In this document: positions 59,740-63,451 of the stretch, piece by piece | Position numbering within the stretch: the first letter of the stretch is position 1 | Layout of the letters: every line of letters starts with the position of its first letter | DNA from: Dermatophagoides farinae | Taxonomy: Eukaryota > Arthropoda > Arachnida > Sarcoptiformes > Pyroglyphidae | Direction: 5' to 3' | DNA length: 64,000 bases | Assembly: GCF_024713945.1 (NCBI RefSeq) | Contig: NC_134682.1 | Span: forward strand, 3,541,001-3,605,000 | Position numbers and translations under genes: made by a program | Notes under the pieces: generated by a model | Told to the model about the DNA's origin: nothing | Database searches by the model: none | What the model saw: only the letters and a program-made list of their open reading frames with translations

Positions 59740-60795
59740 TAGATAGTCATTTTCGATTTCACCGTGATCAAATTAAACCAACGGATGTCGAGATCGAATC
59801 ATCACTGAAAATTCGAAAACGTTGCTCATTATCTGGGTGATAAAATTCAAAATGAAATCATCCAATTAATATGGAATGCCATCAGAAAAGAAATCTTGTG
59901 AATGGCTAAAGAAGTCAAATATTATTTCTCTATAATTCTGTATACCACTACAGATATTAGCCATAAAGAGCAATTATCAGTAGTAAGTGCGATTCATTTG
60001 CCTTGATAAAAGTATTATAACCAATGGCGAATTCACGAACGTTTTCTGGGTTTCATACCTCTTAATGATACAACAGGATAACAAGGTTTGTTTGATTCTA
60101 TCACAAATTTTTTTACAAATTTTGAATCTTAACATTAATGATGATGATTTACCAGGTCAATCCTACGATAATGGTGCAAATATGCGAGGTAAAAATAATG
60201 GATTGCGACAAAAAAAAATTCTTGAAATTAATTCAAGAGCTTTTTTTATTCCGTGTGCTGCTCATTCATTGAACTTGGTGGCTAATGATGCAGCTAAATT
60301 AACTTATGAAACAATCAATTTTTTTGCGTTGATACAAGAATTGTAAAAGTATTTTTCATCATCTACAAAAACGTTGGGCAACATTCAAAAGACATATGCC
60401 TAATCTCAATTTGTAAACGATTTTTACCACTCGATGGAAAAGCAGAATCGAAGCTATAAAGCCACTTAAATCAAATTTTTAAAAAATAAGTATTTCTCTC
60501 CATCAATTTGCAGATGATTTAACAAAAAATATGAAGTCTGAAGTTCAAGCTGTCAATTTGATTGAAAAAATTGAATCTTTTCATTTCTTATGTTCAATAC
60601 ATGTATGGCATGATATTCTAGTAAATCTTGCAAGTAAGATGATGCAAAACCCTACTTCTAATGTAGGTAAAATCATTGAAAATCTAAACAACATCATATT
60701 ACGATTGAAAGAATTTAGATCCGATGAATATTTTGACAAAAAATATAATAAGAATTTGGCAACTGAAATGGCAAATAGTCTTGATAATCAATTAA
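59740..60795 (+). pseudogene. Decayed hAT-type transposase (DUF4371/zinc-finger MYM-like), left part
   Basis: Conceptual translation in shifting frames shows hAT-superfamily transposase features of the DUF4371 / ZMYM-type group. In order they are a KIQNEIIQLIWNAI helix, then a stop, KEVKYYFSIILYTTTDISHK (the divergent first catalytic-Asp region), ERFLGFIPLNDTTG, SYDNGANMRGKNNGL, NSRAFFIPCAAHSLNLVAND, and a later KIESFHFLCSIHVWHDIL-like block. At least five in-frame stops and two frame changes are visible, so it cannot encode a working transposase. Terminal inverted repeats and target duplications of this element were not found. The sequence is cut at 60795 by a piggyBac-like insertion and resumes at 61649. 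Confidence 0.75.
60792..60795. repeat. TTAA target-site duplication, left
   Basis: TTAA directly abuts the left end of the piggyBac-like element. The matching copy is at 61645-61648. Confidence 0.85.
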
Positions 60796-60811
60796 CCCTA
60801 GAAAGGTAACC
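60796..60811 (+). repeat. Left terminal inverted repeat
   Basis: CCCTAGAAAGGTAACC, an exact inverted match to 61629-61644. It continues into CTACGTAAA, which is matched by the sub-terminal copy at the right end. Confidence 0.9.
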
Positions 60812-61628
60812 TACGTAAAATTTATGCTTTTTGCACTTCAAAATGTTCCAAAAAAACACTCACGATGCTAAGACAGCTGGAACCCCTTTCTATTCCTCAA
60901 GAATATATTTCTACGCCTTTAGAAATAGAAAAGATCCAGTTTTTGCCTTTTATCTGTTATCTATAAGCTTAGGCGTAAAAGCTTGTACGTAAAATTTACG
61001 TATAGTTGCCTGAATCAGCATAGAAAAATCTTAGAAAATTTTGCTGAGAGCGATAGTTTCGGAAATTTTTCCCAAAAAACGTCATTTATGAATAAAAATA
61101 ATTTTAATTTTTTTCTTTTTTTATCTTTTCACTTGTCAAAAACGTTTTTTGTCGCAATATTTTTTGAAATAAACGTCTTTTCTGTTCATTTGTTTATGTT
61201 TTTCACTTTATTCAAAATTAAAATGCTTGCAAAAAGCGTTTAACAACGACCGGATGTAAACGTTGTGGCACCGCCCCCGTGGCGAATATCAGATAAAAAT
61301 TTGTCAATCATGTTTCGAAACACAATCATCGATTGATTAATCATATTTACAGGATCATTTTTCATTTTTTCTTGACGCTGTGATAATTTCAAAATTGACA
61401 ATAAAAAAAAATTCAAAATTTACACCATATCTTTAATTTGATATTTTTGAACTTTCCACTTTTGAAAAATGATTTTTTCTTCTTTAATATAAAATAGAGG
61501 TGTGATTCAACGAATAAACGTTAAAATTTAACATAAATAATCAGATAAATAATTTTTATAGCGGAAATAAGTTAGGCATATCAACTACGTAAAATTTACG
61601 TAGGTTACCTTTCCCGCAATATCGATAA

Positions 61629-61644
61629 GGTTACCTTTCTAGGG
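61629..61644 (-). repeat. Right terminal inverted repeat
   Basis: GGTTACCTTTCTAGGG, the exact reverse complement of the left terminus, followed directly by TTAA. Confidence 0.9.
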
Positions 61645-61680
61645 TTAAGCAGTTATTCACCGATGAAAGAAGAAAAACCA
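61645..61680 (+). pseudogene. hAT-type remnant, continuation after the insertion
   Basis: Sequence to the right of the piggyBac-like element. If the element and one TTAA are removed, the host frame ending SLDNQL runs on a few codons before entering an A-rich tract. This supports insertion into a pre-existing transposon copy. The true right end of the hAT remnant cannot be placed. Confidence 0.45.
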
Positions 61681-63451
61681 AAAAAAAAAAAAGTTTTTTA
61701 ATTATAAATCACTGTTTTCCTCATTTTCTAAATATTTTAATTATCAACTATATATTGAACTTAATCTCAATAATGATCTTTTTTTTTAATTAAATGAATC
61801 AACTTGAAAGGATTATTACCTTATATATGAATGAATGGTAAATTCAGTTATGAATCAAAAAAAAAATCAATAAATATGAAACTTCGTGTTTAGTAGATTA
61901 TTTTGTTCATTTCGTTTTTTTTGTCAAAAAAAAAACAAACAAACAAACAAAAAAAATCAATCAATATTTTGGCGATGAATTTTCCTAGTATATGAACTAA
62001 CTAACTCATCATCATCATCATAATCAACAGGTAATGGTGTGTGAGTGCGAATGAATGAATGAATGAAAAAATGTTTTGCGTTCTGGTTATTGAAAATGGC
62101 TCGTGAAATTCAACTAAAGTGGCGATATGCGGAAGCTATTTCACGCTGCAATTTTTTTTCCTTCTTCTTTTTCATCTTCTTTTTTGTTATCCAATTGAAA
62201 TTTAATCGACCGATGATGCATCGCGGACATTCTATGAATGTAACAAACAAATAAACAACAACAACAACAAAAGTAGAAGAGAGATAAATGAGAAAGAAAA
62301 ACATTTTGATCAAAAAAAAAAAAAAAAATATAAGAAAATAGTTGGTCATCGAATTTCAGGTAAACGAAAATCGCTAATTCCAAATGGTCCAATTATTTTT
62401 GTAGATGGCCACACACACACACACTTAAAAAGGTTTTATTTATGCACGTGATACCATCACGAGTGATTGTTTGTCCATATTTCGATATGATTTCATAACA
62501 ATTGAAATTGGCCAATCAATTCGATCGATGCCATTGATTGTATATGTCAAACACATAATCAATCAATAATGTTGATGTGACCAAATAACCAACCAACCAA
62601 CCATCATCATCATCATTATTGTGATTATGATTACCTACTCTAAATATCTTTGCAATCATTTTAAGTTGACGACGATATTTTAGTCATCATCATCATCATT
62701 ATTATAATCGCTAACATACAATTTATGTTCATCACATTTTTTTTTGTTTGCTGATACAAATTGATGCTCATTCTCTTTCATTCTATTCTTCCGCCCCCCC
62801 CCATGATAATATAACAACCATTTTTATACACAGGATGATGAGATAATTCCAGGTCATTTATGTGTGTGTGTGTCTATGAATTTTATTTAGATCTAACATT
62901 GGTCATCTAACATTCGATTCTGACCACATATGACAGGTCATCATCAAAACAAAAAAAGCAAAATAGATTGTCGTTTGAACCGGACATTTTTGTGTTTGTA
63001 AATTTTTTTTTGTTTTGTTTCATTTTATTGTTTTTGTTCCTGGATTAAATAATCGCCTTATGATGATGACAATAGACATAATCCAGTTTGATGACACACA
63101 TGATGATGATGATGATGATGATGATGTGAACGACCGAAATCCATATTGTCTATTCGATTAATAAAATTATTTAATTTTCTTTTTTTTTTCAATAATCCAT
63201 TCGCGTGGTGAGCATTTCTTTCTTTCTCTCACACACACACTCTCATTCTCTAGTTTGGCCTATTGTATTCATTCCAACAGCATCCAATCATGATTGTTAA
63301 GCATATATAAATTGATTCAATTTGATCTGCCAAACGCCAATGTATAATTTAGATTTGTTGTTGTTGTTGTTGTTGTTGCCATCTTCACACGCGAACATTG
63401 ATTGTGTAACAGTGTCGAGATTTTTATCTGTACTTGTATTTCGTATTATAA
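61681..63451. other. Non-coding spacer before the last gene
   Basis: About 1.8 kb, AT-rich, with A runs, an ATC array near 62000-62020, CA/GT runs near 62409 and 62861, a C run at 62793-62801, a GAT array near 63099-63124 and a GTT array at 63357-63378. It should contain the promoter of the gene starting at 63452. No coding region is seen. Confidence 0.55.

Follow-up and report, generated by a model that had tools for sequence, protein, structure and literature searches.

The window, which is the whole stretch of DNA analysed (64 kb), contains a transposon-like element that lies between two TTAA target-site duplications and interrupts the remnant of a coding region. The locus is composed of the following features, with coordinates given as positions of the window:

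59914..60791, forward strand: broken remnant of transposase-like sequence, possibly hAT, into which the element is inserted; it has frame breaks, two TAA and a sub-threshold DUF659 match
60792..60795, no strand: left copy of the TTAA target-site duplication (TTAA is present on both sides in all 14 two-ended long copies aligned)
60796..61644, forward strand: non-autonomous piggyBac-type element (MITE), 849 bp, in which no coding capacity was found
60796..60812, forward strand: left terminal inverted repeat, perfect, 17 bp, CCCTAGAAAGGTAACCT
60812..60828, forward strand: left subterminal palindrome-like repeat, bp 17-33, with 3 mismatches to TACGTAAAATTTACGTA
60986..61002, forward strand: additional internal palindrome TACGTAAAATTTACGTA, perfect
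61586..61602, forward strand: subterminal palindrome TACGTAAAATTTACGTA of the right end, with its start 43 bp from the tip
61603..61612, reverse strand: repeat of the tip segment, AAAGGTAACC, adjoining the right palindrome
61613..61628, reverse strand: insertion specific to the right end, 16 bp
61628..61644, reverse strand: right terminal inverted repeat, perfect, 17 bp
61645..61648, no strand: right copy of the TTAA target-site duplication
61649..61700, forward strand: open frame of the remnant continuing past the element, as read from the joined flanks

An earlier note on this DNA had described an 849-bp segment between exact TTAA duplications, and both duplications are indeed in place. Its terminal repeats, said to be perfect over 16 bp, are perfect, while their length has to be corrected to 17 bp. 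The window has 372 TTAA sites, and no other two of them that lie 100-1500 bp apart enclose perfect 16-bp inverted repeats; the same holds for perfect repeats of 10 bp. First-order Markov resamples of the window (n=20) yielded one 10-bp pair in total and not a single 16-bp pair. The 17-bp repeat starts with the tip CC[C/T]T, and short terminal inverted repeats with this tip are the definition of piggyBac-type ends given in PMC2872659. No Pfam family was matched by the longest frame of the element (104 aa). It resembles other MITEs in being short, non-coding, multi-copy and of uniform length (all 12 full-length copies measure 849-851 bp), and exceeds their usual size, which is stated in PMC2872659 to be under 500 bp.

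We searched the window's own assembly (62.4 Mb in 22 contigs; all copy counts are lower bounds) with the element and obtained at least 46 matching stretches, at least 12 of them full length at 98-100% identity, as expected for the multi-copy family that had been suggested. The end pattern TTAACCCTAGAAAGGTAACC occurs 46 times with up to two mismatches, including 34 exact occurrences, compared to a single one for the pattern read backward. Fifteen long copies were aligned, 14 of which have both ends (L057 lacks the right one); two of these 14 carry internal deletions (L058, L059), and the count does not include decayed or nested copies. All 14 two-ended copies are bordered by TTAA on both sides, each in different flanks. 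This is the target site of the piggyBac superfamily, and a single TTAA is also present at a paralogous empty site described below. Taken together, the TTAA duplications, the perfect ends and the dispersed, nearly identical copies confirm that the element is a non-autonomous one of piggyBac type.

The pairwise K2P divergence among the 12 full copies ranges from 0 to 2.28%, with a mean of 1.46%. Two copies on different contigs (L004 on C4 and L005 on C2) have identical sequences in different flanks, and L003 and L006 show no substitution and only one gap column, again with differing flanks. Because of this low mean divergence and the two identical copies on different contigs, we regard the elements as a young, non-autonomous piggyBac family that was recently mobile. 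Shared variants sort the copies into subfamilies, suggesting that the family was mobilised more than once. None of the 49 variable columns of the 12 full copies falls into the terminal 35+63 bp, compared to 5.6 expected (P=0.002), so that these copies are invariant in sequence over the full extent of both ends. Invariant termini would result if mobilisation was confined to copies whose ends were sound.

The two ends differ from each other in a way that the earlier note does not describe and that is known from the piggyBac element (IFP2) of the moth Trichoplusia ni (T. ni), a tool of genetic engineering. According to PMC7351741, the palindrome bound by the CRD in the T. ni left end (LE35) has a position that matches bp 17-33 of the mite element, and the right end (RE63) carries a 17-bp insertion and a sequence duplication before its palindrome. 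The authors of that structure call the asymmetric arrangement puzzling, and they report that the native enzyme supports both excision and integration in cells only for a combination of a left and a right end (PMC7351741). We aligned the ends of the mite element with the T. ni ends as printed in PMC3078864. Counted on these alignments, 27 of 35 positions are identical to LE35 and 45 of 63 to RE63. The alignment scores are 19.0 for the left and 21.0 for the right end; the highest values in 2000 shuffles each were 11.5 and 11.0, and the crossed pairs (left versus right) scored 10.0 and 9.5. With the first 10 bp fixed and the remainder shuffled, the observed score was reached once in 5000 shuffles for either end; with 16 bp fixed, it was reached in 0/5000 (left) and 3/5000 (right). 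Both elements share the TTAA target, the tip CCCTAGAAAG, a left palindrome at bp 17 and a right end whose palindrome is preceded by an insertion and by a second occurrence of the tip segment. They differ in the length of this insertion (16 bp in the mite element, 17 bp in RE63), in the start of the right palindrome (bp 43 versus 45) and in the palindrome itself, which is TACGTAAAATTTACGTA here and one around TGCGTAAAATTGACGCA in T. ni. In addition, the mite element has one extra internal palindrome and, unlike T. ni piggyBac, no transposase gene. As judged from these alignments, its ends reproduce the asymmetric layout that characterizes the T. ni piggyBac subgroup.

Very probably, then, the element is a young MITE that was moved by cut-and-paste through a piggyBac transposase acting in trans. 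The ends suggest an enzyme of the DDE piggyBac type, and their layout points to a member of the T. ni piggyBac subgroup. The core of this enzyme would have bound the tips and its C-terminal zinc domain the subterminal palindromes, and the unequal spacing on the left and the right may have served the pairing of the ends.

We looked at the piggyBac transposases of the same assembly. The PF13843 profile gave 14 matches, which were grouped into 10 places, and two intact transposase frames were found, at C2:4364159 (L009, 527 aa) and C5:3037117 (L010, 562 aa). An autonomous element with the ends of the MITE (CCCTAGAAAGGTAACC) was not found in the assembly. End sites of the CCCTAGAAAG type occur 57 times, 34 of them exact and 23 with one mismatch. 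Read backward, this short pattern gave 21 matches; the 23 one-mismatch sites therefore correspond to about the number expected by chance, and it is the 34 exact sites that carry the signal. The one-mismatch single sites at C1:1260728, C2:907496, C3:4925749, C5:2557966, C5:4599202, C8:2181643, C9:67889, C10:992219 and C10:3225872 lie outside the set that was inspected closely. The single end at C7:595743 was considered as part of an autonomous copy and rejected, since it runs into unrelated open frames. The L010, T. ni and piggyBat proteins also served as tblastn queries against L060-L063 and L026, with no convincing match.

The element had been thought to indicate an active or recently active transposase, encoded between the same termini. 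Recent mobility is borne out by the copies; that they point to an active transposase in this genome is not supported in this wording, and no element with these termini was found to encode a piggyBac transposase, as transposase places and end-like sites never coincide. A piggyBac stretch at C1:1076647-1077501 (L011) reads through three consecutive frames without stops, is about 28-29% identical to the other transposases over its first part and may represent either a decayed element or an intron-containing gene.

The source gene of the MITE's transposase may be missing from the assembly by extinction, by absence from the sequenced individuals or by loss during assembly. The last two cases amount to an autonomous partner with the MITE's ends that persists elsewhere, which we consider quite possible, while leaning against it. 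Since identical copies at different sites imply that the family was active recently, its enzyme should also have existed until recently; against its persistence, none of the 10 transposase places is found at a distance of up to 180 kb from an end-like site (n=57), a result that speaks for this assembly only.

A trace of a suitable enzyme was obtained with the T. ni transposase as query. The sequence at C9:2920823-2921083 is 49% identical to it over 87 aa, is interrupted by two stops and reads KPQIVMTYNETKRSVDKFDQLCNNMSCNRK, which resembles a stretch of the T. ni protein; its identity to the L010 protein is 26% over 70 aa. Therefore, a T. ni-type transposase was probably once present in this lineage. 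The relic is short (87 aa), and a zinc domain (CRD) is not convincingly visible in it; within 3.2 kb around it, no MITE-type ends were recognisable. The similarity suggests that the relic could be what is left of the lost partner of the MITE.

Alternatively, the MITE might have been cross-mobilised by the intact transposases L009 and L010, if these recognised little beyond the CCC tip and TTAA. No other intact piggyBac transposase frame was found, and such an enzyme may be available now; for piggyBac-type MITEs of corals, PMC2872659 proposes cross-mobilisation via a short common motif. The two proteins are 99.8% alike over 509 aa; among solved structures, piggyBat (E=1.7e-72) is the closest to the L010 type, ahead of T. 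ni piggyBac (E=3.4e-43). On C5, the element measures 2894 bp (L070:2876-5769, or L070:2872-5773 with the flanking TTAA) and has the terminal inverted repeat CCCATTCACGACC and the ends CCCATTCACGACCA, whereas the right end of the C2 copy (L009/L069) was not found. This element shares the TTAA duplication and the superfamily (PF13843) with the MITE and differs from it in its ends, for which reason L009 and L010 were rejected as the likely partner. Its ends score only 2-6 against those of T. ni, compared to the scores of 19-21 for the MITE, and the palindrome TACGTAAAATTTACGTA is absent from it at up to 4 mismatches. Moreover, according to PMC11707139, piggyBat and piggyBac have zinc domains that differ in fold and recognise unrelated palindromes, and this difference would presumably extend to L010. 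We thus judge cross-mobilisation by the piggyBat-like enzyme to be improbable and favour a T. ni-type transposase acting in trans. The end pattern of the piggyBat-like element occurs 17 times in the genome without a mismatch, including the two ends of the C5 element.

Empty sites were searched by joining the flanks of the 14 two-ended copies at a single TTAA and comparing them with the assembly. One paralogous example was obtained, for L007: C3:2010787-2010940 aligns straight across the junction with 91% identity and retains a single TTAA, which is one of the empty sites that had been asked for. For 12 other copies, including that of the window, no empty paralogue was among the matches listed in the joined-flank search. 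For the left flank of the window's copy, the assembly contains a single other fragment (120 query bases, 77%), and no empty site was found there. For L008, a tandem relative of the locus at C9:2014032 was considered as an empty site and rejected because it is too gapped at the site.

Some further sequences carry related ends. Among decayed copies, L074 has CTAA at one end and ATAA at the other, while TAAA stands on one side of L075 and TCAA on both sides of L076. Three mini-elements of 51 bp (L071-L073) resemble the right end only; TTGA is present on one side of L071 and of L072, and L073 has TTAA on both sides. The three appear to be copies of a single locus that was duplicated. L076 (C4:6690079), L026 (C2:4085476) and L080 (C3:6495032) consist of related ends with little sequence between them. 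In L080 (C3:6495032-6495219), which spans less than 190 bp including the TTAA pair, a left-type end is present on both sides, a combination that is among those reported as inactive with the native T. ni transposase. In the region of L074 (C7:943800-947000), MITE fragments are clustered in both orientations and perhaps represent nested insertions.

That the nearly identical copies arose by segmental duplication or gene conversion instead of transposition is hardly credible: the mini-elements do look like a duplicated locus and conversion between copies may lower divergence, but each of the 14 two-ended long copies has a TTAA pair of its own and distinct flanks that return to their own place, and for one of them (L007) there is a paralogous empty site.

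Two of the 14 copies compared lie in open coding frames, in addition to the window's own host remnant. At L007 (C9:1974618-1975468), the frame obtained by joining the flanks has an above-cut-off match to choline/ethanolamine kinase (PF01633, E=3.8e-8); therefore, this copy interrupts an exon-like frame in one copy of a choline/ethanolamine kinase-like gene, as predicted from this match. L008 (C9:2020331-2021181), about 45 kb from L007, lies within an open frame of 320 aa with a weak zinc-finger match (PF13465, below the cut-off).

In the window, the element was thought to be inserted in a dead hAT transposase. The host is a broken, coding-like remnant: joining the flanks across the insertion restores an open frame of 121 aa, and the upstream part contains two in-frame TAA and a frame break. 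Its assignment to hAT did not hold up to the same degree, since the match to PF04937 (DUF659) gave E=0.021-0.035 and 14-15 bits, below the Pfam cut-off of 34.7. The remnant's place is absent from the matches of a DUF4371 profile search of the assembly, and its translation in one frame, with X at the stops, matched nothing. A stretch at C10:1715662 is 44% identical to it. The remnant also contains what we take to be hAT-like motifs, such as GQSYDNGANMRG, and a hAT transposase is a plausible reading of its sequence. Since the siblings of the element are 98-100% identical and the host frame is decayed, the remnant is the older and the element the younger of the two, as the earlier note had proposed. 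The only other DNA fragment that resembles the remnant (77%; C4:7085459-7086280, L079) lies less than 500 bp from another broken piggyBac-like stretch.

MITEs of piggyBac type are already known. In corals they are termed CMITEs, and autonomous piggyBac-like elements were isolated there (PMC2872659). Like the mite family, they are short and non-coding, are flanked by TTAA duplications and have CC[C/T]T-type ends. They differ in their end sequences and in the host; for the mite family, no matching autonomous element was found. The Pokey family of Daphnia includes the MITEs mPok1 and mPok2 (PMC4912750, PMC3849761), which are also non-autonomous members of the piggyBac superfamily in an arthropod. 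As described in these articles, Pokey differs in targeting a specific rDNA site besides other places; the likeness concerns this description and not the ends. PiggyBac is listed in PMC6327564 among the superfamilies present in all species investigated there. In the open-licence literature, taken without supplements, no piggyBac MITE family from mites was among the matches listed. The interesting part is the T. ni-like layout of the ends of a family for which no partner was found.

It is conceivable, though rather unlikely, that a T. ni-type system was active so recently in the mite lineage that the ends of the MITE are still functional substrates while the autonomous element has been lost. If so, these ends would perhaps be substrates even for the laboratory T. 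ni transposase, and the asymmetric layout would be constrained across insects and mites. A young family with the same layout and a different palindrome offers a natural test of which features of the ends matter. In addition, its copies can serve as insertion markers and testify to the recent activity of DNA transposons in the genome. As a separate observation, an astigmatid mite as the source of the DNA is indirectly supported by C1:5872170-5872620 (L083), which contains a relative of the mite group-2 allergens, with Der p 2 as best match (E=3.2e-30).
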